Source: Hyphomicrobiales bacterium
GTDB taxonomy: Bacteria; Pseudomonadota; Alphaproteobacteria; Rhizobiales; Beijerinckiaceae
Direction: 5' to 3'
Length of the DNA: 61,870 nt
Assembly: GCA_028290705.1 (NCBI GenBank)
Contig: JAQGJH010000107.1
Location: 1-61,870 of the forward strand
Made by a program: the position numbers and the translations under genes. Under the pieces are notes generated by a model. It did not search any database. It worked only from the letters and a program-made list of their open reading frames with translations, and was not told the DNA's origin. Below are positions 22,216 through 43,787 of the stretch, in pieces. Numbering within the stretch: position 1 is the stretch's first letter; every line of letters starts with the position of its first letter.

Positions 22216-22458
22216 ATGACGGACCCGAACGGCAGCGGCGCCGAGGCACTGGAAGCACGGCTGGATGCACTGGAAATGCGCCTCGCCTACCAGACCGAAG
22301 CCATCGAGGACCTGAACTCCACCATCACGGAACAGTGGAAGCAGATCGATGCCCTGAACCGCCGACTCGTGCTGCTGACCGACCGGCTGCAGGAGGCCGA
22401 GGCGCGCGCCGCAGCGGGACCGGCGGCCGAGGACGAGCCCCCGCCGCCGCACTATTAG
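22216..22458 (+). CDS. slyX: SlyX protein
   Basis: The 80-residue protein has the SlyX pattern: a single coiled coil (LEARLDALEMRLAYQTEAIEDLNSTI, then LNRRLVLLTDRLQEAEAR) and the diagnostic proline-rich end EPPPPHY. The family start is MTD, which picks the ATG at 22216 with GGAGAG nine bases before it; an ATG at 22189 overlapping the MarR stop is the alternative. Function is unknown, although it has been linked to FKBP-type isomerase loci in enterics. The gene overlaps the end of the convergent FMN reductase by 4 bases. Confidence 0.88.
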   Translation: MTDPNGSGAEALEARLDALEMRLAYQTEAIEDLNSTITEQWKQIDALNRRLVLLTDRLQEAEARAAAGPAAEDEPPPPHY

Positions 22459-23042
22459 ACGCCATAGGGCGGCCGCGCGGCGGCGCGCTGCGCCTTGAGG
22501 GCCTGCGCGTACCATTCGAACTCATCGAGGAACCGATCCGCGGCCTTATCGATCCAGGGCTCCGTGGCGTCTCCGGCCTCATCCAGCGCCTTGCCGATCG
22601 ATGGAATGGCAAGGTTCGTGGGCAGGCTCGGCATGCCGAGTTCGGTCAGGATGGTGCGCAGCGCGACCGCCGCGCGGACGCCGCCGAACCGGCCTTGTGA
22701 ATAGGACATGATGCTCGACGGCCGCCAGAAATATTCCTCGAGAAAATGATCGAGCAGGTTCTTGAGCGCGGGCGGGACGGACTGGTTGTATTCGGCCGTG
22801 CAGAGAATGAACCCGTCTGCACGGCGATAGAGTGTTGCGAGATCCTGCAGCACGGCGGGCGCCTGCCCCGGGGCATATTCCTTGTACATGCGATCGAGGA
22901 GCGGGAGCTTCTTCTCCATCGGGTCGACCAGCACGGCCTCGTGGCCGCGCTTCTCCAGCGCCTTGACGATATAGCGTGCGGCCTTGATGCCCTGCCGCTC
23001 CGTGCGTACGGAGCCGAGAAGAACCGGAACCACGAGTTTCAT
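22455..23042 (-). CDS. NAD(P)H-dependent FMN reductase
   Basis: The 195-residue flavodoxin-fold protein shows the FMN phosphate loop GSVRTERQG at residues 10-18 and the family motif TAEYNQSVPPALKNLLD around residue 90. These mark the NADPH-dependent FMN reductase / arsenate-resistance ArsH-like superfamily. It reduces FMN, or quinones, with NAD(P)H. GGAGGTTGGC precedes the ATG; in-frame codons further upstream are not needed. It is the last gene of the eight-gene minus-strand operon that begins at 30213. In that context it could supply reduced FMN, a substrate of UbiX-type prenyltransferases. That link is inference. Confidence 0.85.
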   Translation of the reverse strand: MKLVVPVLLGSVRTERQGIKAARYIVKALEKRGHEAVLVDPMEKKLPLLDRMYKEYAPGQAPAVLQDLATLYRRADGFILCTAEYNQSVPPALKNLLDHFLEEYFWRPSSIMSYSQGRFGGVRAAVALRTILTELGMPSLPTNLAIPSIGKALDEAGDATEPWIDKAADRFLDEFEWYAQALKAQRAAARPPYGV

Positions 23043-23106
23043 GCCAACCTCCGCGCGCGTGACCCAAGCACCCAAGGTGCGCGGAGACGGCGCGTGCGCC
23101 AAGCCC

Positions 23107-24012
23107 TCAAACGAGATCGTGTTTGCGCAGGAAGCTCAGCATGGCGTCGCGGCATGCTTGCGGGTTCTCGATCTGCAGCAGGTGGCCGGTTTCGTGGATG
23201 GCCTCGTAGTCGTAGCCGCCCTCTTGCGCCAGCGCCCGGTTGGCGACGCCGGTCGGAGGCGCGCCGCGCCATTCGGGATCGGCGCCGATCATCTTGACCG
23301 GACCGCCATAGGCGGAGGCCGGCGGCCACAGCTCGAGCGTCAGCGCCGCCAGATAGATCGAGGCTTCGAGTTCGCGCCGGCAGGTCAGCGTCTGGCGTCC
23401 GGCGCCGTCGTCGCGCAGCACGGCGCGGGCCATGTCGGCGCGCGCCTGCGGAAGCCAGCGGCTCTGGCCGCGGCTCTCGTCGAAGAGCTTGTTGAGATCG
23501 GCGACGGTGTCGAACGTGTCGGGCCTGTTGAGCGCGAAATCGACCAGCTTGGTTTCGAAGACCCGCATGGCCTCGTAATGCTCGTGGCCGCGCGGCGGCA
23601 CGTTGGGCGGATCGAACAGGACTAGCGCCTCCCAGACCCATTCCATTTCCACCGCATGTTTCATGGCGGCGCGCGACGACATGGAGTGGCAGACGCCCAC
23701 GGTCTTCTTGCGGCCGAGCTCCTTATCGATCCCGCGGCGGATCGTGCCGATGTCACGGGCGAGCTGCAGATAATTATGCCCGTCCGCGCCGCTCGGAACG
23801 TTGCGGCCGTGGTTGCGCATGTCGAAGAGCACGACGTCGAAATCTGCCAGCAGCGGCTCCCAGAAGACACGGTATCCATCGACCGCGAAGCCATTGCCGT
23901 GGGTGATCGCCAGACGCACGCCATCGGGCTTGCCCAGGCGTCGGCATTGCACCGAAACGCCGTCGTCCATCTCGATGGTGAAGGCGTGTTCCGATTGCGC
24001 CGCCGCGTTCAT
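23107..24012 (-). CDS. Alpha/beta hydrolase
   Basis: The 301-residue protein is an alpha/beta-fold hydrolase. The oxyanion region is THGNGFAVDGYRVF, the FDMRNHGRN loop follows, the nucleophile elbow is GVCHSMSS around residue 107, and the base lies in HETGHLLQIENP near the end. The elbow has a serine after CH instead of the classical G-x-S-x-G. Hydrolases of this kind cleave esters, lactones, C-C bonds or CoA thioesters in aromatic degradation. It lies 27 bases after the enol-lactonase-like gene and 64 bases before the FMN reductase, so it is in the same operon. Confidence 0.85.
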   Translation of the reverse strand: MNAAAQSEHAFTIEMDDGVSVQCRRLGKPDGVRLAITHGNGFAVDGYRVFWEPLLADFDVVLFDMRNHGRNVPSGADGHNYLQLARDIGTIRRGIDKELGRKKTVGVCHSMSSRAAMKHAVEMEWVWEALVLFDPPNVPPRGHEHYEAMRVFETKLVDFALNRPDTFDTVADLNKLFDESRGQSRWLPQARADMARAVLRDDGAGRQTLTCRRELEASIYLAALTLELWPPASAYGGPVKMIGADPEWRGAPPTGVANRALAQEGGYDYEAIHETGHLLQIENPQACRDAMLSFLRKHDLV

Positions 24013-24039
24013 GTGGTTGCTCCGATGCGAGGCTGCGCC

Positions 24040-24828
24040 TCAGTGCCTGGCGAGAAAGGCGTCCAGCACCTGCTGGAAGCCCTGAGGATTCTCGAGCGCG
24101 GTGATGTGTCCCGCGTCGGGAATGATCGCGTGTTCCGCGCCTGGAATCTTGGCCGCCGCCGCCGCCAGCGCCTCGGGCGGCGCGCCCTTGTCCTTGGCGC
24201 CGCCGAGGATCAGCGTGGGGGTGCGGATGAGGTGAAGCCGGGGCCCGAAGGCCAGCGTCTTCAGGGCTTCGCAGCAACCCTCGTGGCCGACCGGCGTCGT
24301 CGTGCGGATCATGTTGCGCACCTTGTCGAGAACCGGCGGATTTGCGGCGCGCGTCTCGGGCGTGAACCAGCGCTCGATGGTGGGTTCGACCACGCCCTCC
24401 ATGCCCTTTTCGCGCGCCAGATCGATGCGGTGCTGGAAATAGGCGGCGTAATCGGGCGGCGCGTCGGGCCGAGAGTCGCAGGCCGTGAGGCTGATCAGCC
24501 GTTGGGGATGTTCGATCGCGAGACCGTAGCCGATCATTCCCCCGATCGAGAGGCCGACCCAATGCGATTTTTCGACGCCGAGCTTGTTCCAGAGGCCCAG
24601 CACGTCGTCGATCAGCATCGGGAACGTATAGGGCCCCGGCACGGGAGGGCTTTGGCCATGACCGCGATGATCATAGCGCAGGACGCGGAAACGATCCGTC
24701 AGGCTGGCCGCGACATCGTCCCAGAGCGTCAGATTATTCGCCAGCGCATGCGACAGCGTGATCCAGGGAGCGCCTTCGCGTCCCTCGACCACGCAATTGA
24801 GCTGCACGCCGTTGGTGTCGATCAGCAT
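24040..24828 (-). CDS. Alpha/beta hydrolase, 3-oxoadipate enol-lactonase-like
   Basis: The 262-residue protein resembles PcaD, which opens 3-oxoadipate enol-lactone in the beta-ketoadipate pathway. Visible are LSHALANNLTLWDD for the oxyanion hole, RYDHRGHGQS, the nucleophile elbow GLSIGGMIG near residue 98, and a catalytic histidine in IPDAGHITALENP. GGGAGACGCAGG precedes the ATG. Enol-lactonases and related ester hydrolases cannot be separated by sequence inspection, and no other pca gene is nearby, so the substrate is probably another ring-opened product of this pathway. It is co-transcribed with the cupin (35 bases) and the second hydrolase (27 bases). Confidence 0.82.
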   Translation of the reverse strand: MLIDTNGVQLNCVVEGREGAPWITLSHALANNLTLWDDVAASLTDRFRVLRYDHRGHGQSPPVPGPYTFPMLIDDVLGLWNKLGVEKSHWVGLSIGGMIGYGLAIEHPQRLISLTACDSRPDAPPDYAAYFQHRIDLAREKGMEGVVEPTIERWFTPETRAANPPVLDKVRNMIRTTTPVGHEGCCEALKTLAFGPRLHLIRTPTLILGGAKDKGAPPEALAAAAAKIPGAEHAIIPDAGHITALENPQGFQQVLDAFLARH

Positions 24829-24863
24829 CCTGCGTCTCCCGTGCAAAAGTCCCTGGCGTCGGC

Positions 24864-25331
24864 TTACTTGTTGTCGCCGACGTATTCCAGCTCGTCCGTC
24901 ACCTTCAACTCGATCAGGACGTTTTCCTCAGCCGACTGCTCGCACAGCATGGAGCGATGCGCGATGCCCTTGGGGATCACCAGCATGTCGCCGGGCAGCA
25001 TGGTCTTGGTGCCCATCTCGGTTTCCCACTTCAGCGCGCCCTTGATGCAGATGATCACTTCATGCGCGTCGATGTTGCGATGCCAGAAGCCCATGTCTTC
25101 CTTGCTGCGCTTCGAAATGTCGATCTTGCAGCCATCCGACGTGTAGACGCGCAGCGGCGTGCCGTCGGCCTTGTTGAAGTTGCTGGGCTGATACTTGTCA
25201 TCGAAAATGTTGAGCATGCGGAAGATCTCCGCGCGCTCGAGAACGCCCGCATTGCGGACCGGCGGCTCGTCATGCGCGATGACGACGTTCTTGCCGCCGA
25301 TGGTGATGAGTTCGCGGAATTTCTCGGACAT
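24864..25331 (-). CDS. Cupin domain protein
   Basis: The 155-residue protein has one cupin barrel. The metal-site motif 1 is in GFWHRNIDAHEVIICIKG (two histidines and a glutamate, residues about 93-103) and motif 2 is in PGDMLVIPKGIAHRSM with the further histidine. These residues are those that bind iron or manganese in small dioxygenases and isomerases such as 3-hydroxyanthranilate and homogentisate enzymes. The overall sequence does not let me name a reaction. GGGAGCCAACC precedes the ATG. Its place between the metallo-hydrolase and two alpha/beta hydrolases suggests a ring-cleavage or sensing role. Confidence 0.8.
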   Translation of the reverse strand: MSEKFRELITIGGKNVVIAHDEPPVRNAGVLERAEIFRMLNIFDDKYQPSNFNKADGTPLRVYTSDGCKIDISKRSKEDMGFWHRNIDAHEVIICIKGALKWETEMGTKTMLPGDMLVIPKGIAHRSMLCEQSAEENVLIELKVTDELEYVGDNK

Positions 25332-25368
25332 GGTTGGCTCCCTTTGCTTGATAGATTTCGTTGACGTG

Positions 25369-26403
25369 TCACGCGCGCCGGAGCGCGCGATAGCGGATCG
25401 TCCCCGCACCATCCTCGATGACCTCCAGCTCGCCCAGGGCAAGAAGATGATTGAGGTGTGCGAGCGCTTCGCCCATGGCGAAATAGACCTGTTGCCCGTC
25501 CAGAACGAAGCCGAACAGGTGCTTCATGCATTCGGCCCCGGTCATGCTGTCGCAATCATCGAACAAGGCGCGGATGAAGTCGAGCCGCGAGGCGTGATGC
25601 GCCTCGAGTTCGTCGATCCGGCCATGCAGGCCGCGGAACGGAGGACGATGCGAGGGCAGCACGAGCACGTCGTCGGGAATGGCGGCGCGCAGGCGTTTCA
25701 GGCTTTGCCCATACAGCGCCAGGGGGTCGCCGAGCGGCTCCCAGTGCACGACGCTGATGTTGGGCGTGATCTTGGGCAGGATCTGGTCGCCCGCGATGTA
25801 GACGCCAAGCTCGGCGCAATGGAAGCCGGCGAGCGCCGGCGAATGGCCGCCGCCGACGTGGACGCGCCAGACACGGCCGCCGATCGCGAGCACCTCGTCC
25901 TGCGCCAGCGCGGCATAGCCCGCCGGCAGCTCGACGCAGGCGGAGTAGAGGATGAAGCCCTCGTTGTAGACGTCGATCTGTTCAGGCGAAAGTCCGTGTC
26001 GCACGAAGAAGGCCGACGAGGCGGCGAGATCGTCGGTGAAGAGATCGCGCACCGCGAGCTGCGCGGCCATCCATTCGGGCGAGGTCATGCGGGGGCGCAG
26101 GTTCCAGCGTTGCGCGATCCAGGCGCAATTTCCAGTGTGATCCGGGTGAAAATGCGTGACCAGCAGACGGGTGATGGGACGGCCCCCGAGCGCGGCCGCC
26201 CAAGCGGCCTCGAGCTGGGCGCGAACCTCGTCGCTGCCGTAGCCGCAATCCACCATGGTCCATCCGTCGCCATCCTCGATCAGCCAGAGGTTGACCTGGC
26301 GCAGCCCGCGGAACGGCAAAGGCGAGTCGATGCGCAGGACGCCCGGCGCCACCGTCTCGAACAGAGGCGCGCCAGCTGTCGCGGATGCGGCCGGATGGTT
26401 CAT
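25369..26403 (-). CDS. Metallo-beta-lactamase-fold hydrolase
   Basis: The 344-residue protein carries the binuclear zinc motif THFHPDHTG around residue 86, a later VGGGHSPALAGFH histidine, an AGDQIL aspartate and PSHRPPFRG. It belongs to the MBL-fold hydrolases (glyoxalase II / BaeB-like) that often act on thioesters or lactones. The ATG overlaps the stop of the iron-sulfur subunit (ATGA), showing tight coupling to the molybdenum hydroxylase. A role in hydrolysing a CoA ester or lactone after hydroxylation is plausible. The C-terminal winged-helix-like part (ECMKHLFGFVLDGQQVYFAMGEALAHLNHL) is common in the family. Confidence 0.88.
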   Translation of the reverse strand: MNHPAASATAGAPLFETVAPGVLRIDSPLPFRGLRQVNLWLIEDGDGWTMVDCGYGSDEVRAQLEAAWAAALGGRPITRLLVTHFHPDHTGNCAWIAQRWNLRPRMTSPEWMAAQLAVRDLFTDDLAASSAFFVRHGLSPEQIDVYNEGFILYSACVELPAGYAALAQDEVLAIGGRVWRVHVGGGHSPALAGFHCAELGVYIAGDQILPKITPNISVVHWEPLGDPLALYGQSLKRLRAAIPDDVLVLPSHRPPFRGLHGRIDELEAHHASRLDFIRALFDDCDSMTGAECMKHLFGFVLDGQQVYFAMGEALAHLNHLLALGELEVIEDGAGTIRYRALRRA

Positions 26404-26912
26404 ACCGCGCCTATGTCGCGCTGCGGCGGCGCATGGGCCTCGACGACGTCCATGACGGCGTCGACGATGTTGGCATAGCCGGTGCACCGGCACAGATGGC
26501 CACAGAGCACGTCGACGACCTCGTCGCGGCTCGGCTCCGGATTGCGGCGCAGGAAATCCGTGAAGGACATCAGAATGCCCGAGGTGCAGAAGCCGCACTG
26601 CAGCGCGTGGTGACGCCGGAAAGCTTCCTGCAGCGCATTCATGCGGCCGTCTTCATCGGCGAGCGACTCGACGGTTTCGATCGTGGCTCCGTCCATCTGC
26701 ACCGCGAAGGCCAGGCAGGATCGCGCCGCGACGCCGTCGATGATGACCGTGCAGCAGCCGCAGACGCCGTGCTCGCAGCCGACATGCGTGCCGGTCGCGC
26801 CCAGTGTGTGGCGAATGAAGTCGGTCAGCAGCAGGCGCGGCTCGGCATCGCCCGTCACCTTGCGTCCGTTCAGCGTGAGGGTCACGCGCTGCTTCGGCTT
26901 TTGTTCGATCAT
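26400..26912 (-). CDS. Molybdenum hydroxylase 2Fe-2S small subunit
   Basis: The 170-residue protein is the iron-sulfur subunit of a xanthine-dehydrogenase-type enzyme. The plant-ferredoxin-type cluster site is GCEHGVCGCC followed by a later RSC, and the second cluster site is QCGFCTSG plus CRCTGY. These are the two 2Fe-2S clusters that carry electrons from the molybdenum centre to FAD. The gene overlaps both neighbours by ATGA, in the order large - medium - small, which is typical of three-subunit hydroxylases such as nicotinate, isoquinoline, furoyl-CoA or caffeine-type enzymes. Confidence 0.95.
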   Translation of the reverse strand: MIEQKPKQRVTLTLNGRKVTGDAEPRLLLTDFIRHTLGATGTHVGCEHGVCGCCTVIIDGVAARSCLAFAVQMDGATIETVESLADEDGRMNALQEAFRRHHALQCGFCTSGILMSFTDFLRRNPEPSRDEVVDVLCGHLCRCTGYANIVDAVMDVVEAHAPPQRDIGAV

Positions 26913-27721
26913 GAGCGCAGCTCCGAAATCACCGCGGGGGCGAGGCGACGCACGAGGTCGCGCCGCATGCGCTGGCTGGCGTGCAGATCCTCGTAGGTCT
27001 CGAGTTCCCAGGCGAGCGCTTCGATCTCGCTCATCAGGTCGCCGCCGTTCGACGCGTAGCGCCGGACCACGGGCCTGTCGGCAGCGCCGCCGATGCCCAC
27101 GAGAATTTCGGAAGGTGAGAGACTGACGGCCCCCACGGCCACGATGGCGTAGTCGCCGTGCCGCCGCGCGACCTCGCGGAACGCCGCCTTGCCGCTGCCC
27201 GTGGGGAACCGCACCGCGACGATCATCTCGTCGGCCTCACGCGCGGTCGAGAGCATGCCGGTCTGGAACTCATCGGCCTTGAGCACGCGGCGGCCGCGTG
27301 GCGATTGCAGCACCACCTCGCCGCCCAGCATGGCGAGCGACAGCGGGATTTCCGAACTCGGGTCCGCATGCGCGATGGACCCGCAGACTGTGCCGCGGTT
27401 GCGCGTCTGGAAATGACCGACCCACGGCATCGCAATGGCGAGCAGCGGCACGTGCCGGGCGAGATCGGGCCAGGACAGAAGCCTGTTCTGCGTCACGGCT
27501 GCGCCGACCTCCAGCATGTCGCCATCGAGGCGGATGTGCGAGAGATCCGCAATGTGGCGGATGTCGACCAGCGCCAGCGGCTCGAGCAGCCGGAAGTTCA
27601 GCATGGGAATGAGTGACTGGCCGCCGGCGAGAATGCGCGCGTCGTCGCCATAGCGCGCCAGCGCCTCCACGGCTTCGTCCACAGATGCGGGGCGCAGATA
27701 TTCGAAGGAACGCGGCTTCAT
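26909..27721 (-). CDS. Molybdenum hydroxylase FAD-binding medium subunit
   Basis: The 270-residue protein is the FAD subunit of the same complex. FAD-binding motifs are LAGGQSLIPMLNFRL near residue 32 and NRGTVCGSIAHADPSSEIPL near residue 110, followed by the CO-dehydrogenase flavoprotein C-terminal region. It starts with MKPRSFEYLRPAS directly in an ATGA overlap with the large subunit and ends in an ATGA overlap with the small subunit. This arrangement supports equal production of the three subunits. Confidence 0.93.
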   Translation of the reverse strand: MKPRSFEYLRPASVDEAVEALARYGDDARILAGGQSLIPMLNFRLLEPLALVDIRHIADLSHIRLDGDMLEVGAAVTQNRLLSWPDLARHVPLLAIAMPWVGHFQTRNRGTVCGSIAHADPSSEIPLSLAMLGGEVVLQSPRGRRVLKADEFQTGMLSTAREADEMIVAVRFPTGSGKAAFREVARRHGDYAIVAVGAVSLSPSEILVGIGGAADRPVVRRYASNGGDLMSEIEALAWELETYEDLHASQRMRRDLVRRLAPAVISELRS

Positions 27722-30213
27722 CGGGCGTCTCCCGCGCCGGCTTCCGGCTCGTCGCGCGTCAGCATGTCGTGGATGCGGCGCGGCGTCGCCGGCAGGCGCA
27801 CGTCGGTCACGCCCAGCGCATCCGCGACGGCGTTGGCGATGCAGACCGGCACGCTCATGCAATTGCCTTCGCCCAACCCCTTGGCGCCGAGCGGCGTGAA
27901 GGGCGACGGGCTCTCCATGTGGATGATTTCGAGCGGCGGGACTTCGCACACGGTGGGGATGACGTAATCGGCGAACGTGCCGGTCTGGAAGCCGCCGCCC
28001 TCGTCGTAGATGAACTCCTCGTAGAGCGCGGTGGCGATGCCCTGCACGAAGGCGCCGTGGATCTGGCCTTCGGCGATCAGCGGATTGAGCAGCGCGCCGG
28101 CATCGTGCATCGAGACATAGCGGTCGACGCGGACCTGGAACGTCATGGGATCGACCTCGATGCCGCACATGTCGAAGACGAAGCCATAGGTCAGCGAGGT
28201 GTTGATACCGTCGCCGCTGGTCGGCGGCTCGAGCTCGGGAGGCGACCAGACCGCCGTCTCGCGCAGGCCAGGCTCGACGCCCTCGGGCAGCATGATGGGA
28301 GACCAATGCGCCGTCCCGGCCACGCGTCCAAAAGCCAGTGCGTTGTCGGGATTGCTGCGCGAGCGCACCTTGCCGCCGGACAGGACTACGTCTTCGGGCA
28401 GAACGTTGAGCTGCTTCGCGCCGATCCGCGCCAGCTTGTCGCGGATCTTCTGCGCGGCGAGATGCGCCGCGACCGCGGTGCCCGGCGAAAAGCGGCAGGA
28501 GTAATTGCCGCTCGCGATCGACCACTGATCCTTCTGGGTGTCGATCTCCAGATTGACGGTGATTTCGTCGGGCGACAGTCCGAGCTGGTCGGCGACGATC
28601 TGCGACAGGACGGTGATGTGCCCCTGCCCCTGCGCGGGCGTGTCGGCCGTGACCGAGACCGCGCCCAGCGGATCGATGTTGACGGTCGCCATGGAGACCG
28701 CGCCGTTTTTCGGGCCGGACCGCTCGCGCGCGGCGAGCGGCAGAAGTGTCGACAGATAGCCCATGTTGGACATGCCGGGCTCGACCACCGCCGCATAGCC
28801 GATGCCGTAGAGTCGGCCCTGCGCGCGCGCCTCGTCGCGGCGGCGGCGAAGATCCTCGAGCCGGCCATCGCCGGTCGCAATCTCGATCGCCTGCGGGTAA
28901 TCGCCGGAATCGTAGAGCGCTCCGGCGGCGGTGCGATATGGGAACGAGCCCGCCGGAATGAGATTGCGGCGCATGACGTCCAGCGGATCCATGCCGAGCT
29001 CGACCGCGATGCGCTGCACGATGCGCTCAAGCGCCAGATAGATCTGGGGACCGCCGAACCCGCGATTGAGCGCCGCCGGGGCCTTGTTGGTCAGAACGAT
29101 GCGGTTTGCGACCGCGAGATTGCGGATGTCGTAAGCGCCGGTGAGCGCGCCATGCATGCGATAGAGCGGGCCGGGCATGGGCGCGCGCAGATAGGCGCCG
29201 TAGTCTTCGAGCTGATCGAGACGAAGGCCGGCAATGCGTCCGTCGTTCATCACCGCGGCCTCGACCTTGGTGATGCGGTTCGGCCCCGTGCTGGCGGCCA
29301 GAAGGTGCTCGAGGCGGTCCTCGACCCATTTGACCGGGCGGCCGACGATGCGCGCCGCAAGGCCCATGAGCACGATGAAGGGGAAGACCGAAAGCTTGAT
29401 GCCGAAACTGCCGCCGCTGTCGGGAGGCGTGCGCAGGCGGAGCTTGCTGCCGGGAATGCGCAGCGCCCTCGCCATCACCGGATGAGCGCTGAAAGGCCCC
29501 TGGAAATTGGCCAGTACGTCGTAGCTCTGCTCGGCGCGCCGATATTCCGCGACCACGACGAAACATTCCATCGGCGTGTAGGAGTGACGCGGAAATTCGA
29601 CGTCGAGCTTGACGATGCGATCGGCCGACGCGAAGGCGGCATCGGGATCGCCATAAACGAAGTCGCGCCGCGACAATTCATTGGAGCCGACTGCCTCGTG
29701 CACCAGAATGGCGTCTGGTCCGACGGCCTCCAGCGGATCGATCACGACCGGCAACGGCTCGTAGTCGATCTCGACGAGTTCGGCCGCATCCTCGGCGACA
29801 TAGCGGTCGCTCGCGACGATGAGCGCGACGGGCTCGCCGACGTAGCGCACGCGCTCCACCGCGAGCGACCATTGCGGAATCGGCTCCTTGACGGCGACCA
29901 GAAACGGATCGGACAATTTGGCGATGTCTTCGCCCGTGATGACGGCGCTGACGCCCGGCAGGTCGAGCGCAGCCGCGACGTCGATGCCGCGGATGAGTGC
30001 GTGCGGGTGCGGCGAGCGCAGAACGTGAGCCACCAGTGTGCCGGGCGGCACCGGCAGATCGTCGGCATAGCGGCCTGCGCCCGTGAGCAGCGCCTCGTCC
30101 TCACGGCGGCGGAGCGGCTTGCCGACATGTTTCGACCCCGACCGAGCGTGAGCGCCTGCGGCTTCCCGTGCGGATGGCTCCTTGCGGGCCGCTTGATCCT
30201 GGACGTCGGTCAT
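27718..30213 (-). CDS. Molybdenum hydroxylase molybdopterin-binding large subunit
   Basis: The 831-residue catalytic subunit contains the molybdopterin-cytosine-dinucleotide domains. GKPLRRREDEALLTGAGRYADD lies after a charged 30-residue N-terminal extension; GGSFGIKLSVFPF and TPAQGQGHITVLSQ follow. The active-site glutamate is in AKGLGEGN near residue 782. The second-shell loop reads LNRGFGGPQ, not the cysteine loop of CO dehydrogenase. It would hydroxylate an aromatic ring, aldehyde or aromatic CoA thioester. It is the first gene of an operon reading through the medium and small subunits, MBL hydrolase, cupin, two hydrolases and FMN reductase. A promoter overlapped by a palindrome lies about 80 bases upstream. 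The ribosome site is weak. Confidence 0.93.
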   Translation of the reverse strand: MTDVQDQAARKEPSAREAAGAHARSGSKHVGKPLRRREDEALLTGAGRYADDLPVPPGTLVAHVLRSPHPHALIRGIDVAAALDLPGVSAVITGEDIAKLSDPFLVAVKEPIPQWSLAVERVRYVGEPVALIVASDRYVAEDAAELVEIDYEPLPVVIDPLEAVGPDAILVHEAVGSNELSRRDFVYGDPDAAFASADRIVKLDVEFPRHSYTPMECFVVVAEYRRAEQSYDVLANFQGPFSAHPVMARALRIPGSKLRLRTPPDSGGSFGIKLSVFPFIVLMGLAARIVGRPVKWVEDRLEHLLAASTGPNRITKVEAAVMNDGRIAGLRLDQLEDYGAYLRAPMPGPLYRMHGALTGAYDIRNLAVANRIVLTNKAPAALNRGFGGPQIYLALERIVQRIAVELGMDPLDVMRRNLIPAGSFPYRTAAGALYDSGDYPQAIEIATGDGRLEDLRRRRDEARAQGRLYGIGYAAVVEPGMSNMGYLSTLLPLAARERSGPKNGAVSMATVNIDPLGAVSVTADTPAQGQGHITVLSQIVADQLGLSPDEITVNLEIDTQKDQWSIASGNYSCRFSPGTAVAAHLAAQKIRDKLARIGAKQLNVLPEDVVLSGGKVRSRSNPDNALAFGRVAGTAHWSPIMLPEGVEPGLRETAVWSPPELEPPTSGDGINTSLTYGFVFDMCGIEVDPMTFQVRVDRYVSMHDAGALLNPLIAEGQIHGAFVQGIATALYEEFIYDEGGGFQTGTFADYVIPTVCEVPPLEIIHMESPSPFTPLGAKGLGEGNCMSVPVCIANAVADALGVTDVRLPATPRRIHDMLTRDEPEAGAGDAR

Positions 30214-30289
30214 CGGAACTCGTTTCTTCCCACGGCGGAGGTCTTCAGCCTGCCTGTCCGGCGCAAACACGAGGGGTCGCGCTCAAACG

Positions 30290-30315
30290 TATTTCCGTAT
30301 TATAATGCCGAAATA
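30290..30315. promoter_or_regulatory. Operator-like inverted repeat, site A
   Basis: A 26-base palindrome: left arm TATTTCCGTATT, AT spacer, right arm AATGCCGAAATA; 10 of 12 arm positions are complementary. It lies in the divergent region between the molybdenum hydroxylase operon and the GNAT-Rrf2 pair. It covers the -10 element of a minus-strand promoter. Related repeats with the same 10-base gap between the GG/CG and CC pairs occur at 35915-35940 and 41379-41404. Confidence 0.6.
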
Positions 30316-30326
30316 GGCCAAGACAA
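30299..30326 (-). promoter_or_regulatory. Sigma-70-type promoter of the molybdenum hydroxylase operon
   Basis: On the minus strand TTGTCT (30321-30326) is followed after 16 bases by TATAAT (30299-30304), placing a start point near 30292 and a leader of about 80 bases before the ATG at 30213. The TATAAT block is itself nearly symmetrical, so a plus-strand promoter for GNAT could use it as well, though no good -35 is seen there. Confidence 0.5.
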
Positions 30327-32960: not shown

Positions 32961-33148
32961 GTTCGGACTCCTCGACTTCAGTGGCCCGCCGGCGCCTGGG
33001 CGCGCGACATCATGGTTGCGATCTTCTTGCTCTTGCGCATGCGGTTGCGCCATCTCGCATGACGGCGGGCTTCCCATGCGCCCGACGTCCGTTTCTGCAG
33101 TGCGCCGAGCGGCCCGGCGCACCTGCTCACGTCCCGTTTATGTCACGC

Positions 33149-34183: not shown

Positions 34184-34260
34184 TTCTTTCCTCCCAGGCT
34201 TTTCAGTTGCGGCGTCGCTTGGCGAGCCGCAGGACCGCACGCGCGGCGGGGATTGACGCG

Positions 34261-35846: not shown

Positions 35847-35914
35847 GATCCCTCCCGAGCGGCAGTTGCGGAGACAGAACGGTCCCCGCAGCATCCAATG
35901 GTCGCTGGCCGACC

Positions 35915-35940
35915 TATTTCGGTATTCAAACACCGATATT
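35915..35940. promoter_or_regulatory. Operator-like inverted repeat, site B
   Basis: Left arm TATTTCGGTATT, CA spacer, right arm AACACCGATATT; 9 of 12 arm positions are complementary. The left arm matches the left arm of site A at 11 of 12 positions. It sits between the divergent ABC transporter operon and UbiD copy 2. Confidence 0.6.
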
Positions 35941-36102
35941 AAGAAACCGCAACCGGCTGAGCTGTTCCGAAACGGTGAAAATTGCCCAAGGATCTGCTTC
36001 GCGGTGGCACACCAAGCCTCGCGCCAGCGGCGAGCATTCGTACAAAGCGCCGTGCGAAGGCCATGTTCGTGCTTGGCTCCCATCGCGGGGAGACGCGGGA
36101 CC

Positions 36103-36128
36103 TATTCCGGACACTGCATACCTTATTC
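36103..36128. promoter_or_regulatory. Possible weak operator, site D
   Basis: TATTCCGG, ten bases, then CCTTATTC repeats the GG-N10-CC spacing and flanking TATT of sites A-C, but its two arms are poorly complementary. It lies 100 bases before the UbiD copy 2 start. It may be a chance match. Confidence 0.2.
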
Positions 36129-36228
36129 GGCTTTACCGACATCCGGCTGCGTGCTAATTCGAAGGCAAGACAGGCGTGCGGAAAAGCGCCGGTCATCAAC
36201 GAGGTCGATCGGGAAGAGGGACAGGGCC

Positions 36229-37809: not shown

Positions 37810-37879
37810 TGCGTCCTGCTCGCGCGGCGTAACGAGACCGGCTCCGCAGCCGGCGACAGACCAAGGGGACGGAAAAGCG

Positions 37880-39454
37880 ATGTCAAACGTCTTCGGCCAG
37901 CATGAACTGGCCCTTCCCTTCCGCTCGACGGCCGACCTGCTGTCGAGCTATCGCACGCGCGATCCAAACAAGAAGGCGATCGTCGATCTCGACCAGGGAA
38001 CGTCGATCACCTTCGGTTCGCTCGACCAGGCAACGATCGACGTCGCGACCGAGATGAAGCGGCGCGGTGTGGGGCATGGCGACAAGGTCGTGGTCCTGTC
38101 CGACGAGGTGCTCGAAAAGCTCATCGTCTGGCTCGCCTGCTGGCGCATCGGCGCGGTGGTCTGCCCGCTCAACGTCGAGCTGAACAGCGAGCACGTCTCG
38201 TCGCTGACGGCGCTGATCGGACCGAAACTCATTCTCGTGCACAAGGATCTCGACAAGGCGGCGTTCACCGTCGGGGCAGCCGCGCCCGTGTCGGTGTTCG
38301 GCGCATGGAGCGACGACCCTGCGAACGCCGATCCGGCCGACGAGTTCTTCCGTGCCGTACCCCGGGGGGCCGATGCGTCGGGACTGCCGGAGCGCAATGC
38401 CGCCGAAGACGTGTCCTGCATGTTCTGCACGTCGGGCACGACCAGCAAGCCCAAGATCGTCGTGTACGATCATGCGGCCTATTGGCTGAGCGGATTGTCC
38501 ACTCTGGACATCCTCGGCCTGACCGAGAAAGACAACACGCTGGAGTATCGCTCCTTCGGCTGGAACTCGGCGCAGATTCTCAGCCTGCTGCCGTTCCTGC
38601 AGGTCGGCCTGACCATGCACATGGCGAAGCGCTTCTCACACAGCAAGTTCTTTGAATGGATCCAGAAATACGAGCTGACATTCGCGGCCGGCGTGCCGAC
38701 CGTCGTCAACATGCTGCTCAACAAGCCGCTCGGCTACACGGCCAAGGATCTGCCGAGCCTGCGCCTCATGACCTGCAGCACCGCGCCTCTGTCGGGCGAG
38801 CAATGGGCGCGGTTCGAGGAAATGTACGGCGTCACGCTTCTGCAGCTTTATGGAATGTCGGAGGCCGGCTGGATCTGCGGCAACCGGCATTACAAGCGCA
38901 AGATCGGCACCGTCGGACCGCCGGCCAAGCATCAGGAATTCGCCATCGTGGACGAGCAGGGCAACGTCTGCCCGCCAGGCGTCGAGGGTGAAGTGACGAT
39001 CGGCGGCCCGCAGACCGCCATCGGACTTCTGAAGGACGACGGCACGATCGATCCGGTCCGCGGCCTGCGCATCAAGACCGGCGATCTCGCGGAAATGGAT
39101 GCCGAGGGTTTCGTGCGCGTCACCGGACGCACCAAGGATCTGATCATTCGCGGCGGCATGAATATCTCGCCCGTCGAAGTCGACGAGGTTCTGCTCGCCT
39201 GCCCGGGCGTGGCGGATGCCGCATCCGTCGGCGTGCCGGATCCCATCTACGGCGAAGAGGTGGTGGGTTTCGTCGTTCTGAAGGACGGCGCAACCGAGGC
39301 GGAGGTGATGGACTTCTGCGCGTCGAAGCTGCCGCATGCGAAACGTCCCAAGCAGGTCTTCGTGACGGACCAATTGCCCAAGAGCGATCGCGGCAAGGTG
39401 CTGCGCGACAAGCTGCGTGACGAATGGACCCGACGCACCGACGCGAAGAGCTGA
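37880..39454 (+). CDS. Acyl-CoA synthetase (AMP-forming acid-CoA ligase)
   Basis: The 524-residue enzyme belongs to the ANL adenylate-forming family. The P-loop-like motif reads CTSGTTSKPKIVVYDH near residue 180, the A5 motif LYGMSEAG near residue 322, A7 IKTGDLAEMD, A8 GRTKDLIIRGGMNISPVEVDE and A10 PKSDRGKVLRDKL with the catalytic lysine. It activates a carboxylic acid to its CoA thioester through an acyl-AMP. AAGGGGACGG precedes the ATG. It lies 70 bases after UbiD copy 2 and 7 bases before the enoyl-CoA hydratase, so the three are one operon. The acid is probably aromatic, judging by context only. Confidence 0.92.
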   Translation: MSNVFGQHELALPFRSTADLLSSYRTRDPNKKAIVDLDQGTSITFGSLDQATIDVATEMKRRGVGHGDKVVVLSDEVLEKLIVWLACWRIGAVVCPLNVELNSEHVSSLTALIGPKLILVHKDLDKAAFTVGAAAPVSVFGAWSDDPANADPADEFFRAVPRGADASGLPERNAAEDVSCMFCTSGTTSKPKIVVYDHAAYWLSGLSTLDILGLTEKDNTLEYRSFGWNSAQILSLLPFLQVGLTMHMAKRFSHSKFFEWIQKYELTFAAGVPTVVNMLLNKPLGYTAKDLPSLRLMTCSTAPLSGEQWARFEEMYGVTLLQLYGMSEAGWICGNRHYKRKIGTVGPPAKHQEFAIVDEQGNVCPPGVEGEVTIGGPQTAIGLLKDDGTIDPVRGLRIKTGDLAEMDAEGFVRVTGRTKDLIIRGGMNISPVEVDEVLLACPGVADAASVGVPDPIYGEEVVGFVVLKDGATEAEVMDFCASKLPHAKRPKQVFVTDQLPKSDRGKVLRDKLRDEWTRRTDAKS

Positions 39455-39461
39455 GGTGCGC

Positions 39462-40241
39462 ATGAGCGAAGCAGCCTACGACGGATTTCGGCTCGATCTC
39501 GACGCCTCGCGCGAGCGGGCCGACATCGTGCTCTGCCGTCCTCCCCTCAACGTCATTTCGATGGCGCAACGCGATCAGTTGCGCGAGGTTTTCGAGCAAC
39601 TCGATTGCGACGATCGTGTGCGCGTCATCGTGCTGCGCGCCGAGGGCCAGCATTTTTCGAGTGGCGGACAGATCAGCGGCTTTCTCGACACTTCGCCTGA
39701 AGTCGTTTCACGACTGGCCTGGAACATCGCCGCGCCTGCCCGTTGCCACAAGCCGGTAATCGCCGCGAACCGCGGCTATTGCTTCGGCGTCGGGTTCGAA
39801 CTTTCGCTCGCCTGCGACTTCCGCCTCGTCTCGGACACCTGTCAGTATGCCTTGCCTGAGCAGAAGCTCGGGCAAATTCCCGGCTCGGGTGGTTCGGCAC
39901 GTCTGCAGAAGATGATCGGCATCACACGCACCAAGAACATCGTGATGCGCTCGCAGCGAATCGACGCCGTCAAGGCCGTCGACTGGGGCATTGCAACCGA
40001 GCGTTTTGCAGATGCGAATCTCGAGGCCGCCACGGACGCGCTCGTCGACGAGTTGCGGGCTTTCTCGCCACTTGCTCAACGCACGGCCAAGAAGTTGCTG
40101 AACGACACGGAAGACACGAGCCTGTCGATCGCCATCGAACTCGAGGGCCATTGCTACAGCCGGCTGCGATCATCCGATGATTTTCGCGAGGGCGTGCTCG
40201 CCTTCGGAGAGAAGCGCGCGCCAAAGTTCACCGGCACGTAG
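39462..40241 (+). CDS. Enoyl-CoA hydratase/isomerase family protein
   Basis: The 259-residue crotonase-fold protein has an oxyanion-hole segment HFSSGGQISGF near residue 67 and a second, GYCFGVGFELSLACDFRL, near 107. PEQKLGQIPGSGGSARL follows and retains the catalytic glutamate position in PEQKLG. A member acting as hydratase, isomerase or hydrolase on a CoA thioester is expected. The ATG lies 7 bases after the CoA ligase stop. It is convergent with the TctC gene, 44 bases away. A role in converting the CoA product of the preceding ligase is inferred. Confidence 0.9.
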   Translation: MSEAAYDGFRLDLDASRERADIVLCRPPLNVISMAQRDQLREVFEQLDCDDRVRVIVLRAEGQHFSSGGQISGFLDTSPEVVSRLAWNIAAPARCHKPVIAANRGYCFGVGFELSLACDFRLVSDTCQYALPEQKLGQIPGSGGSARLQKMIGITRTKNIVMRSQRIDAVKAVDWGIATERFADANLEAATDALVDELRAFSPLAQRTAKKLLNDTEDTSLSIAIELEGHCYSRLRSSDDFREGVLAFGEKRAPKFTGT

Positions 40242-40285
40242 CAGAACTCCGGGGCTCACTTGCCCCGGGTTCCACATTCCAAAGA

Positions 40286-41320
40286 TCAGTTGGTCTTGAT
40301 CGCTTCGCGCGCCTTCTTCAGCACGTCTGGCTTGACGTTGTAGAGGCGGTTGACGAGCTGCGCCATCTTCTCCCCGGGCATCGGCTGATTGAGCTCGATC
40401 TTGAGCTTGTCAGCCTCCGCCTGAACGTCCTTGTCGGCCATCATGGCGTCGAAGGCGCCTCGCAGGGCCTTGAGACGATCGTCGGGAATTCCCGGGGGTC
40501 CGAAGATCGCGCGGCCCATGGATGACTGGGCGAAAATCAATTGCAGGACGTCGCGCTGTTCGTCCGTTTTCGCCAGTTCGACGACGGTCGGAACGTTCGG
40601 CAGGTCCGGGTGCCGCTCCAGCGCCAGCTGTACCAGAATGTTGATCTTCTTGTCGCGCAGCCAATCGGGTTTGTTGGCCAGCACTGACGAGAAGTTCATG
40701 CCGCCGATGCCGAACGTTTCGCCGCGCTCCATCGCCAGAGAAGTGGCTGCGCTTCCGCCATATCCGGGAATGAGCTTGAACTTCGTCCCAAGAATCCGGT
40801 TGAGCGCCGTCGGGTAGAGCACGGATTGATCGGTCGCGCCGCCGCCCCCCACGATGAGCTCGGTCTTCATGAGATCGTCGGCATTCTTGACCGGCGCCGT
40901 ATGCCAGGCGAGCGAAACGCCGACGTCCGCGTTCATGCTGCCGATCCACGAGAGCTTGCGCGCATCGTAGCGCGCGCCCGATGCGCCGAAGAGGTCGGCG
41001 GTGCCGATCGACCCGGGTCCGAGCCCGATCACGGTTCCGTCGCTCGGCTGTTGCGTCGCCATGCTGTTGGCCATGACGACGCCGGCGGCGCCGGGCATGT
41101 TCTGCGGCACGACGTTGGGATTTCCAGGCAGGAACTTCGAGAGGTGGCGGGCGAAGAAGCGCGCGTAGACGTCGTATCCGCCACCCGGCGGATGACTGAT
41201 GAGCATGCGGACGTCTTTGCCCTTGTAGAAGTCCGCCACCGTTTCGGCGCGCGCCTGCGTGGTCCACGCAAATGCGACACCCAGGATCAACGCGGCACGA
41301 AGCGCCGAGGCCTTGGTCAT
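40286..41320 (-). CDS. TctC-type (Bug) periplasmic substrate-binding protein
   Basis: The 344-residue receptor has a signal peptide (LRAALILGVAFAWTTQARA) and the TctC pattern ADFYKGKDVRMLISHPPGGGYDVYARFFARHL with the loop NMPGAAG. It is clearly related to the receptor at 2646 (same opening and GGGYD motif). GGAGGAGATC sets the ATG at 41320; the ATG 4 codons earlier would overlap this ribosome site. Its membrane subunits are not in the window. It is transcribed divergently from UbiD copy 3, with operator-like site C between, and probably binds the acid handled by that module. Confidence 0.88.
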   Translation of the reverse strand: MTKASALRAALILGVAFAWTTQARAETVADFYKGKDVRMLISHPPGGGYDVYARFFARHLSKFLPGNPNVVPQNMPGAAGVVMANSMATQQPSDGTVIGLGPGSIGTADLFGASGARYDARKLSWIGSMNADVGVSLAWHTAPVKNADDLMKTELIVGGGGATDQSVLYPTALNRILGTKFKLIPGYGGSAATSLAMERGETFGIGGMNFSSVLANKPDWLRDKKINILVQLALERHPDLPNVPTVVELAKTDEQRDVLQLIFAQSSMGRAIFGPPGIPDDRLKALRGAFDAMMADKDVQAEADKLKIELNQPMPGEKMAQLVNRLYNVKPDVLKKAREAIKTN

Positions 41321-41378
41321 GATCTCCTCCATGGTCTTTTGTTCTGGGCTCGTCGCTCTGTCGCGCGGCCTTTTTTTC

Positions 41379-41404
41379 TTATCTGGAATTATGATACCAG
41401 TATT
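41379..41404. promoter_or_regulatory. Operator-like inverted repeat, site C
   Basis: Left part TTATCTGGAATT, AT spacer, right part GATACCAGTATT. The core CTGG and CCAG are complementary with a 10-base gap, as in sites A and B; the outer arms are less symmetrical. It includes a TATGAT -10-like hexamer for UbiD copy 3 and lies 58 bases from the TctC start. Confidence 0.5.
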
Positions 41405-41446
41405 CGGATAGGGGTCGAGTCAAAACAAAACGAGGGAGTGTCGAAC

Positions 41447-43108
41447 GTGACAGCGAAGAACAACCCACCGGCGCGCAGCTATCCCGATCTTCACGATCAT
41501 ATCGCTTCTCTCGACGCTGCCGGGATGCTCGTTCGCGTCGACCGCTTGATCAACAAGGATACGGAAATGCACCCGCTGGTGCGTTGGCAGTTCCGCGGCG
41601 GCATCCCCGAACACGAACGCAAGGCATTCCTCTTCACCAACGTCACCGACAGCAAGGGCAAGCAGTACGACATCGACGTCGTGGTCGGTGCGCTGGCGGC
41701 CAATCGCGAGATCTATCGCATCGGGCTCGGCTGCGATCTCGACAAGATCGAGCAGACCTGGAACCGTGCGACTGCATCGCCGATTCCGCCCAAGGTGGTG
41801 GAGAATGCGCCCTGCCAGGAGATCGTCATCCAGGGTGAGGAACTCGATCGCGAGGGCATGGGACTCGACGCCATTCCGGTGCCGATCTCGACGCCCGGCT
41901 GGGACAACGCGCCCTACACGACCCTGTCCCAATACATCACCAAGGATCCTGACAGCGGCGTCCAGAACATGGGCAATTATCGCGGGCAAGTGAAAGCGCG
42001 CCGCCGCCTCGGCATGAACCCGTCGCTCGAGCTGCGGCCCGGCATCTACCAGCACTTTCTGAAGTACAAGGAACGCGGCGAGAAAATGCCCGCCGCCGTC
42101 ATTCTCGGCGCGCCGCCCGCCATCACCTTCACGTCGACGCAGAAGATTCCCGAGCGCCTCGACGAGCTCGAGGTTGCCGGAGCACTCGTGGGTTCGCCCA
42201 TCAACGTGGTGCGTGGCGTGACGGTCGACCTGATGGTGCCGGCCGAAGCCGAGATCGTGATCGAAGGCTATATCGAGACGGAGTGGCTCGAGCCCGAGGC
42301 GCCATTCGGCGAGTCGCACGGTCACGTCAACCTGCAGGAATACAACGCCTACATGGTGGTGACGGCGATCACCCGGAAGCGCAAGGCGATCCTGACGTCG
42401 ATCATCAGCCAGGTTACGCCGAGCGAGTCGAGCCTGATCAAGCGCATTTCGCTGGAGCCGCTTCTGCTGCAGCAATTGCGCGACGTCCTGGGCCTGCGCT
42501 GCGTCAAGCGCGTGGTGATGCACGAGCCGCTGACGAACCTGCGGAAGCTGGTGACGCTGATCATCGAGAAGAACACGCCACGCGTCGAAACATGGCGCGC
42601 GCTGCACGCCATGGCGACGCAGCATCGTGCCATCGGCAAGTTCATCATTGCGGTCGACGACGACATCGATCCCGACAATGCCGACGCTCTCTGGTGGGCC
42701 ATGGCCTATCGCTGCAATCCGGCGCTCGACATGGAGGTCGTGAAACACCGCGATCAGGGCCATGGGCCGCGCAGCCAGCGCAATGGCGGCGAGGATGCGT
42801 CGGTGCTGTTCGATGCGACGCTGAAGGAGCCCTTCCCGCCGATCTCGCTGCCCAAGCGCGAGTATATGGAAAAGGCGCGCGAGATCTGGGAAGAGTTGAA
42901 GCTGCCCGCGCTGAAGCCGCAGGCGCCGTGGTTCGGCGTCTCTCTCGGCGAGTGGGCGCCCGAATTCGACGTGATGGCCGAGCGCGCCACGCGCAGCGAA
43001 TACTGGACGACCGGCGAGATCATTGCGCAGCAGCGGCGCAACGACGTCCCGATGAACACCGAGACGCGCACGTTGCGCGACAAGGATGGCGACAAGGGGC
43101 CAACTTGA
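41447..43108 (+). CDS. UbiD family decarboxylase (copy 3)
   Basis: The 553-residue protein is a UbiD-type decarboxylase with NMGNYRGQV (N-x4-R), the histidine in GIYQHFLKY, the glutamate in EAEIVIEGYIE and EAPFGESHGH in the usual EGPFGE place. It thus keeps the prenylated-FMN and metal ligands. The start is a GTG with GAGGGAG eight bases upstream; a GTG three codons earlier is possible. It is more like copy 1 than copy 2. IPP isomerase begins 61 bases downstream on the same strand, behind a hairpin that covers its ribosome site. Decarboxylation of an aromatic or unsaturated acid is expected. Confidence 0.92.
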   Translation: MTAKNNPPARSYPDLHDHIASLDAAGMLVRVDRLINKDTEMHPLVRWQFRGGIPEHERKAFLFTNVTDSKGKQYDIDVVVGALAANREIYRIGLGCDLDKIEQTWNRATASPIPPKVVENAPCQEIVIQGEELDREGMGLDAIPVPISTPGWDNAPYTTLSQYITKDPDSGVQNMGNYRGQVKARRRLGMNPSLELRPGIYQHFLKYKERGEKMPAAVILGAPPAITFTSTQKIPERLDELEVAGALVGSPINVVRGVTVDLMVPAEAEIVIEGYIETEWLEPEAPFGESHGHVNLQEYNAYMVVTAITRKRKAILTSIISQVTPSESSLIKRISLEPLLLQQLRDVLGLRCVKRVVMHEPLTNLRKLVTLIIEKNTPRVETWRALHAMATQHRAIGKFIIAVDDDIDPDNADALWWAMAYRCNPALDMEVVKHRDQGHGPRSQRNGGEDASVLFDATLKEPFPPISLPKREYMEKAREIWEELKLPALKPQAPWFGVSLGEWAPEFDVMAERATRSEYWTTGEIIAQQRRNDVPMNTETRTLRDKDGDKGPT

Positions 43109-43121
43109 CGGGATCTGTCTG

Positions 43122-43163
43122 CTCCCCTCTGCTGTTGGTCCGCCCGAAGTTGGCGGAGGGGAG
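43122..43163 (+). promoter_or_regulatory. Hairpin covering the idi ribosome-binding site
   Basis: CTCCCCTC at 43122-43129 is perfectly complementary to GAGGGGAG at 43156-43163. The stem can extend inward to 13 pairs (three G-U) with a 16-base loop. The 3' arm is the GGAGGGGAG ribosome site of the gene at 43170. No T-run follows, so translational control is more likely than termination. Confidence 0.5.
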
Positions 43164-43169
43164 ATCGAC

Positions 43170-43787
43170 ATGAGCCAGGCGTTCGACAGCATCGAGGGTC
43201 AGCGAGCATCCTCGCGTCCGACGAGCCGCGAGGTGGTTCTGCTGGATGCGGATACGGACGCTCCCATCGGGACGATCGGCAAGCATGCAGCGCATCAGGC
43301 GGGGCTGTATCACGCGGCGATTTCGGTCATCCTGGTCGACCGGTCCGGACGTCAATTGCTGCAGCAACGCGCGTTCACGAAATATCATTGCCCCGGCGTC
43401 TGGTCGAATGCGTGCTGCAGCCACCAGATGGCGGGCGAGACATCGCTGGCGGCGGCGCAGCGCCGGCTCTACGAGGAGTTGCGACTTCGGACCGTCCTGC
43501 GGCCTCTTGCGCGCGTGCGCTACAGGGCGCGGGTGGGACGCCTGATCGAGCACGAATGTGTCGACGTGTTCGTGGGTCTCTGCAACACGAGGCCGCGTCC
43601 AAACCCGAAGGAATGCGCCGACATCGCCTGGACGCCGGTCGGCGATTACGAGGCCTTCGCGCCGCTGACGCCCTGGTCGGAACATTATTTTGCGCTGTTC
43701 GGCTGGGAGTGGCCGCGTGAACGCGCCATGGGCGACGCCGGCGACGCGCCGCGCGATTTCGGGCCCGTTCAGGTGCTGGCGCACTAG
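43170..43787 (+). CDS. idi: Isopentenyl-diphosphate delta-isomerase, type 1
   Basis: The 205-residue Nudix-fold enzyme interconverts IPP and DMAPP. Signatures are GLYHAAISVILVD, the catalytic cysteine region WSNACCSHQMAGE (residues 78-90, cysteine next to SH), the helix AAAQRRLYEELRL and the acidic metal/catalytic motif IEHECVDVFVG. The usual proline after the CxH motif is glutamine here. Bacteria using the MEP pathway make both isomers and do not strictly need this enzyme. Its position behind UbiD copy 3 may mean local DMAPP supply for prenylated FMN. Its ribosome site is sequestered in a strong hairpin. Confidence 0.92.
   Translation: MSQAFDSIEGQRASSRPTSREVVLLDADTDAPIGTIGKHAAHQAGLYHAAISVILVDRSGRQLLQQRAFTKYHCPGVWSNACCSHQMAGETSLAAAQRRLYEELRLRTVLRPLARVRYRARVGRLIEHECVDVFVGLCNTRPRPNPKECADIAWTPVGDYEAFAPLTPWSEHYFALFGWEWPRERAMGDAGDAPRDFGPVQVLAH

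Follow-up and report, generated by a model that had tools for sequence, protein, structure and literature searches.

The contig JAQGJH010000107.1 of a Hyphomicrobiales bacterium (assembly GCA_028290705.1), whose positions 1 to 61,870 form the window analyzed here, carries a catabolic island of 20 genes at 22455-43787, with six transcription units leaving three divergent intergenic regions. An earlier note on this DNA had seen one AT-rich inverted repeat in each of these regions and proposed a shared operator for a single regulon. This raises the question of whether the three sites, here termed A, B, and C, are indeed one element and, if so, which regulator would bind them. A common operator and a single regulon are well supported by the ranking of the sites, their genome-wide specificity, their conservation, and their blind prediction with a de novo motif. 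We consider it likely that the Rrf2 regulator encoded within the island at 30893-31384 uses A, B, and C as its operators, that this protein and the GNAT acetyltransferase encoded beside it are a pair of the BadL-BadM type, and that it acts as a repressor of the island of about 20 genes, probably relieved by an acetylated amino-aromatic compound.

Sequence, rank, and conservation of sites A, B, and C

Each site occupies one of the three divergent intergenic regions of the island, and none is assigned a strand. Site A (30290-30315, TATTTCCGTATTATAATGCCGAAATA) lies between coxL on the minus strand and the GNAT-Rrf2 pair on the plus strand, site B (35915-35940, TATTTCGGTATTCAAACACCGATATT) between the minus-strand operon of an ATP-binding cassette (ABC) importer and the plus-strand UbiD2 operon, and site C (41379-41404, TTATCTGGAATTATGATACCAGTATT) between the minus-strand gene for a TctC receptor and the plus-strand UbiD3 operon. 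Direct reading of the sequence bore out the exact (G/C)G-N10-CC spacing that had been described for all three, as well as the identity of the left arms of A and B at 11 of 12 positions. Of 13 possible pairs, 11 are self-complementary in A, a value equalled by 6 of the 61,845 window positions, A itself included. Site B has 9 of 13 pairs, and 167 positions do as well; site C has 7 of 13, which is equalled by 2,832 positions, and C is therefore a weak palindrome when taken alone.

The sites nevertheless find one another. When a symmetrised matrix was made from one site only, the other two took ranks 2 (B) and 3 (C) among the window positions with the matrix from A, ranks 2 (A) and 4 (C) with that from B, and ranks 2 (A) and 3 (B) with that from C. 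When the columns of the A matrix were permuted 500 times with the palindrome preserved, the score of B in its region was reached by none of the permuted matrices and that of C in its region by 40, so that C depends on other evidence; both scores together were never reached. With a matrix trained on A-C and their relatives, the three sites scored 29.8-40.6 bits, compared to 9.1 bits for the next-best place in the window. Searching the genome with a plain string for the site was of no use: with one mismatch allowed, it gave 213 forward and 215 reverse matches, compared to 112 and 161 with the reversed string as control.

Conservation was examined in the orthologous intergenic regions. The alignment over the region of site A covers six loci, among which the site is kept in L039, L040, and L041 and is degenerate in L046 and L048. 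Site B is kept in the same three relatives and site C in L039 and L041, while the flanks are more variable than A-C, most clearly in L040 and L041. A loss of the motif in relatives, which would have spoken against a shared operator, was thus not seen.

We then built a profile, R1, from 19 sites of the window and its relatives, 15 of them also entered in reversed orientation, and searched genomes with it at E<=10. In the source genome (3.02 Mb), R1 matched three places, namely A, B, and C. Since these were part of the model, the result speaks to specificity and not to discovery; the random genomic scatter that was looked for was not seen. Outside its training set, R1 matched upstream of UbiD3 in G026, at the same place as C, upstream of coxL in G073, and upstream of had-oah-dch-bcrC in G086 and G078; two further matches in G086 were weak (10.7 and 9.3 bits).

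A motif was also derived de novo by palindromic expectation-maximisation from stretches of 480 bases taken at the GNAT gene's 5' end in each of 25 loci. The training set excluded the window and its close kin L039-L041, although five of its loci (L074-L077 and L120) are distant island-type loci and hence partly orthologous to site A. The resulting consensus, TAAATTGGTATTATAATACCAATTTA, scored at least 17 bits in 19 of the 25 training regions, and its top three matches in the window were A (34.1 bits), B (28.6 bits), and C (18.3 bits), followed by a fourth at 8.5 bits. Three control training sets of 15, 12, and 25 regions, only the last equal in number to the de novo set, gave unrelated motifs with log-likelihoods of 91-95, compared to 222.8, and ranked A, B, and C between 1,749 and 43,130. 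A further profile, R2, was made from 15 sites, none of them island-type; with filters off and E<=10, A, B, and C were its only three places in the window, A at 17.2 bits (E 0.00039), and B and C weakly at 8.2 bits (E 0.35) and 5.9 bits (E 2).

Another conserved block lies before UbiD2 at 36102-36135 (TATTCCGGACAC...TTCGGCTTTACC, no strand assigned) and is kept in 4 of 4 aligned sequences. It scored 9.0 bits with the matrix from the sites and their relatives and 4.3 bits with the de novo matrix. This slight resemblance to the operator, the block being otherwise unexplained, would be compatible with a weak operator or a promoter.

A GNAT-Rrf2 pair and its relatives beside benzoyl-CoA reductase genes

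The Rrf2 gene (30893-31384, plus strand; PF02082 79.9 bits, TIGR00738 83.1 bits, over the cut-off) is the only regulator gene among the open frames scanned in 22455-43787. It had been listed among the genes facing the sites, and it is indeed present in the unit that leaves A on the plus strand, but as the second gene; the first encodes the GNAT acetyltransferase (30397-30861, plus strand; PF00583 46.8 bits, cut-off 20.7), which the earlier note had missed, as it had the kind of the regulator. A search of the PDB with the GNAT protein found nothing. The arrangement recalls Rhodopseudomonas palustris, where the GNAT protein BadL acetylates aminobenzoates and the products bind the Rrf2 repressor BadM, freeing badDEFGAB (PMC6191541). 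Both systems thus place a GNAT of PF00583 and an Rrf2 repressor inside an aromatic-acid cluster; they differ in that the targets in the window are a UbiD and molybdenum-hydroxylase island, that the window Rrf2 falls in a separate clade, and that its acetylated ligand is proposed by analogy.

Strong Rrf2 orthologues (E<1e-25) were found in 14 of 29 genomes, the source included, or 12 distinct genomes, as G026/G062 and G029/G063 appear to be identical assemblies. At E<=1e-20, 21 of 397 genomes of the order have a match, again counting the source. A GNAT homologue adjoins the Rrf2 gene in all 28 related loci (8/8 in L072-L079 and 20/20 in L119-L138), which amount to 27 distinct loci, L073 and L119 being one place. 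The same adjacency holds in the close kin L067-L071, while none of the six paralogue loci L080-L085 has a GNAT gene beside Rrf2. Within the genus, the Rrf2 gene occurs in 4 of 51 genomes, and therefore the island is accessory there. Three of the four are UbiD2 carriers, and the fourth (G459) shares contig and coordinates with the L039 genome. A plasmid search gave a sole match of 38 bases, to an ABC gene in three Aminobacter records.

In an Rrf2 tree of 35 rows, with gene contexts labelled by us, the 11 island Rrf2s form one clade (98/98) on a long branch, with the 12 rows of 'bad' context on the other side (74/77). Eight of the rows are unlabelled, and the program warned of long branches, that of L077 included. 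The separation of the island clade from the 'bad'-context rows suggests that a BadM-type regulator was captured once by the island. NsrR, IscR, RirA, CymR, and RsrR belong to the same family, but the window Rrf2 matches PDB entries only weakly (about 38 bits at best) and falls far under the cut-offs of the NCBIfam equivalogs of other Rrf2 regulators. The Fe-S kind of Rrf2 regulator has three cysteines; the window protein has only one, C64, and so is not of that kind. A single cysteine at residue 63-67 (positions as numbered) is present in 11 of 11 island-type Rrf2s and in 1 of 12 from 'bad' contexts. In Xanthobacter tagetidis, a second, divergent Rrf2 gene (38%) stands beside the first and has its own operator-like site of 18.8 bits (L111:8366 and 8507-8863).

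Relatives of the GNAT-Rrf2 pair adjoin genes for 4-hydroxybenzoyl-CoA reductase (hba), benzoate-CoA ligase, a badI-like protein, and benzoyl-CoA reductase (bcr), the hba and badI-like neighbors being scored on fragments under the cut-offs. Among 20 genomes examined for bcrC, 17 have it (16 over the cut-off), and two of the three without it (G273 and G266) carry an island of the window type. No bcrC was found in the source genome, which is 74% complete, and hence no operator upstream of benzoyl-CoA reductase genes there. The motif does occur in front of such genes in other genera. It stands approximately 110-160 nucleotides before bcrC in 4 of 20 loci (L148, L150, L151, and L152; 31.8-36.4 bits), and upstream of had-oah-dch-bcrC in L143, L146, L117, and L115; in L145 the available stretch is cut off within had. 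All eight bcrC-linked sites lay outside the de novo training set, and in 223,377 positions of control DNA one position reached at least 18 bits and none 22. In R. palustris, the gel-shift probe for badD (-191 to +21) spans a stretch matching the position of the operator before bcrC (PMC6191541). None of the open-licence papers listed, judged by title or the start of the abstract, connects regulation of the BadM type to UbiD or phthaloyl-CoA genes.

In L148, L150, L151, L152, and L115, the BadM-type operator separates the benzoyl-CoA reductase operon from a divergent gene for a 2-oxoacid oxidoreductase alpha subunit, an enzyme that is perhaps the electron source for ring reduction. Strong operators apart from the GNAT-Rrf2 pair were seen in hba/benzoate-ligase clusters at L139:2726 (34.8 bits) and L140:2457 (33.8 bits).

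Proposed control of the island and competing explanations

A sigma-70-like promoter toward coxL, TTGTCT-16-TATAAT, was predicted at 30299-30326 on the minus strand (one found; shuffles mean 0.0, standard deviation 0.2). Its -10 box lies inside operator A and is kept in L039-L041, where the aligned -35 reads TTGTCT or TTGTCA. Toward the TctC gene, a promoter-like TCGACC-16-TATCAT was predicted at 41391-41418, likewise on the minus strand (one found; shuffles mean 0.1, standard deviation 0.4), with its -10 inside operator C. No promoter was predicted at B. The location of the predicted -10 boxes inside operators A and C fits the role of a repressor. By analogy with BadM, an Rrf2 dimer would bind on or near the promoters, covering the predicted -10 at A and C, until the GNAT enzyme makes an acetylated amino-aromatic, probably the ligand that releases the dimer. 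All six divergent units, each presumably one operon judging from strand and spacing, would then be turned on together, and the encoded proteins would take up an aromatic or heteroaromatic (di)carboxylic acid, link it to CoA, and decarboxylate it by means of UbiD enzymes dependent on prenylated FMN (prFMN). The regulon is best read as one of the BadL-BadM type that was moved to a different pathway. Control known from the benzoate pathway would thereby be linked to a separate decarboxylase island, and a palindrome without a name gains a predicted role as the operator for a defined class of regulators, with a consensus (TAAATTGGTANNNNNNTACCAATTTA-like) usable for finding BadM-type regulons in other genomes.

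Several observations weigh against this reading. As the source assembly is incomplete, further sites could be absent from it. R1 found no match at E<=10 in G066, G068, and G070, all of which have the Rrf2 gene; the de novo motif is weak (13-15 bits) in L077, L123, and L136, and with it no operator was seen upstream of the GNAT-Rrf2 pair in L074, L129, and L131. With default filters, R2 recovered A alone in the window and the source genome, missing B and C, and it had no match in the genomes G026, G029, G064, and G073, while it did match unrelated palindromes in G022 and G024, both of which lack the Rrf2 gene. In the UbiD2 island clade described below, 8 of 18 genomes have no Rrf2 orthologue, so that other regulators can run the island. 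Moreover, the proposed kinship with BadM is drawn from gene context.

Among the competing explanations, the most serious leaves the operators with Rrf2 and changes the signal: the GNAT enzyme would modify some molecule other than an aminobenzoate, or the regulator would sense the CoA thioester of the pathway itself. We give this somewhat less than an even chance. The island Rrf2s are set apart as a long-branched clade, and their specificity for the ligand may therefore have shifted; the scarcity of boxB and bcrC in island-clade genomes (13 of 18 show neither) points the same way. On the other hand, the 11 island-type loci included in the tree retain the GNAT partner, which argues for a conserved acetylation step. 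It is improbable that the sites instead belong to an unlinked regulator of the LysR, IclR, GntR, or MarR type encoded elsewhere. Such regulators often have divergent layouts and AT-rich palindromes, but de novo discovery recovers the motif in front of GNAT-Rrf2 pairs from many genera and from none of the three control sets, and Rrf2 has no other regulator beside it among the scanned island frames, a MerR gene lying just outside at 44201. Least credible is that A, B, and C are chance palindromes in AT-rich intergenic DNA. The poor symmetry of C and the 40 permuted matrices that match its score would allow this for C, but all three sites are conserved in relatives, specific genome-wide, and top-ranked blind, and the position of C in G026 was matched unprompted.

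Some weaker matches lay apart from island genes. R1 gave 12.3-12.8 bits in G065, G072, and G077, genomes without an Rrf2 orthologue, and no island gene was found near these matches except for a 27% match to the enoyl-CoA hydratase/isomerase in L097. The R2 matches at G024:C1 and G022:C1 lie between genes for ribosomal protein S9 and a sugar transferase, with no Rrf2 orthologue, and were set aside as false positives or, perhaps, sites of another regulator. The palindrome CTGGTAT(C/T)AT(A/G)ATACC(A/T)G, perhaps bound by another regulator, stands between the S9 and sugar transferase genes at L169:1501-1526 and L170:1501-1526, in two same-genus genomes without the Rrf2 gene. A third R2 match, G024:C3 (L173), has nothing similar to any query protein nearby.

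The proposed decarboxylase pathway and the island genes

The proposal that the island serves an aromatic or heteroaromatic acid fits its Pcd-like UbiD2, CoA ligase, importer genes, and molybdenum hydroxylase. UbiD2 (36229-37809, plus strand) is 66% identical over 509 residues to the phthaloyl-CoA decarboxylase Pcd (PDB 8pmk, 8oz5, and 8p02) and belongs to the same sequence family, with 823 bits to 8pmk and 153 bits to the best match other than Pcd. Phthaloyl-CoA decarboxylase has been described in anaerobes that degrade phthalate with the help of a CoA transferase or ligase (PMC13040137). UbiD2 nevertheless falls in a separate island clade of 18 sequences (100/99), apart from the clade with Pcd and L056-L063, in a tree whose one characterised sequence is on a long branch. 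Neither boxB nor bcrC was seen in 13 of the 18 island-clade genomes, and five (G068, G070, and G075-G077) have boxB; all eight Pcd-side loci, in contrast, are in genomes with boxB (fragmented in G078). Many of these genomes are incomplete and metagenome-assembled, although X. tagetidis and Propylenella are represented by named strains. The usual product is thus perhaps a compound other than benzoyl-CoA; alternatively, benzoyl-CoA would be consumed by the island itself. Neither boxB nor bcrC was found in the source genome at its 74% completeness; bzd-type and other benzoyl-CoA reductases were not searched for.

The furoate/furandicarboxylate (Hmf) pathway is similar in its parts list of a CoA ligase, a molybdenum dehydrogenase, a hydrolase, and a UbiD enzyme, and the best PDB match of UbiD3 is 6h6x, which we take to be HmfF. 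The island differs in having an extra, Pcd-like UbiD, a cupin, and a metallo-beta-lactamase-fold protein. A tentative reading, which we hold to be less likely than not, is that an acetyl-signal switch of the BadL-BadM type entered, in a single capture, an alphaproteobacterial island for the degradation of a (hetero)aromatic ortho-dicarboxylic acid. The route would be new and CoA-dependent: after Pcd-like decarboxylation, the CoxLMS hydroxylase, the cupin, and the lactonase-like hydrolases would attack the ring, with neither benzoyl-CoA reductase nor epoxidase. A degradation route of Alphaproteobacteria that is as yet uncharacterised is likely, X. tagetidis being among its carriers; that species is described as a thiophene degrader (PMC6624754).

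The minus-strand unit leaving A begins with the CoxL-type molybdenum hydroxylase large subunit (27718-30213; PF02738/PF20256/PF01315; 0 of 13 NCBIfam matches at cut-off). It continues with the CoxM-type FAD subunit (26909-27745, start approximate; PF00941 162 bits), the CoxS-type [2Fe-2S] subunit (26400-26912; PF01799 97.9 bits), the metallo-beta-lactamase-fold hydrolase (25369-26598, start uncertain; PF00753 88.2 bits), a cupin protein (24864-25442; weak PF07883, 24.3 bits, under the cut-off of 27.2), a PcaD-like alpha/beta hydrolase (24040-24846; TIGR02427 227.7 bits, under the cut-off of 255.85), a second alpha/beta hydrolase (23107-24012; PF12697), and an NADPH-dependent FMN reductase (22455-23102; PF03358 101.9 bits). 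From B, the minus-strand unit encodes the ABC ATPase (35043-35846, start inferred within a frame open to 36083; PF00005), a permease (34261-35094; PF00528), an NMT1-type solute-binding protein (33149-34264; PF09084), and UbiD1 (31425-33122, true start probably about 32960; PF01977), and on the plus strand UbiD2 is followed by an acyl-CoA ligase (37880-39454; PF00501 232 bits) and the enoyl-CoA hydratase/isomerase (39417-40241; PF00378). Site C faces the TctC receptor gene (40286-41332, minus strand; PF03401 34.5 bits) and, on the plus strand, UbiD3 (41447-43108; PF01977) and a Nudix, IPP isomerase-like protein (43086-43787; PF00293). The latter had been named an IPP isomerase; it is a Nudix protein that fell slightly short of the curated cut-off with both IPP isomerase models (125.6 versus 127 and 99.1 versus 105.8 bits). 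Given the known chemistry of UbiX, a role in prFMN synthesis is possible for the IPP isomerase-like and FMN reductase genes. A search for UbiX found none in the source genome, as assembled to 74%, or in G061. G026 and G029 have one each on contigs other than that of the island, and X. tagetidis has one at G069:C8:26300, beside the island UbiD1.

Upstream of UbiD2, AATAATACTTAGAAA was seen in 2 of 8 Pcd-side loci, about 182 nucleotides before the gene in L058 and about 76 in L060, and the control motif search over UbiD2-upstream regions gave GAATTGCTTAGAATTCTAAGCAATTC. Directly adjoining the island, the window encodes a MerR regulator and a metal-transporting P-type ATPase (44201-47217) and, further along, a sigma-70-like protein with a DUF6596 domain (49166-50821).

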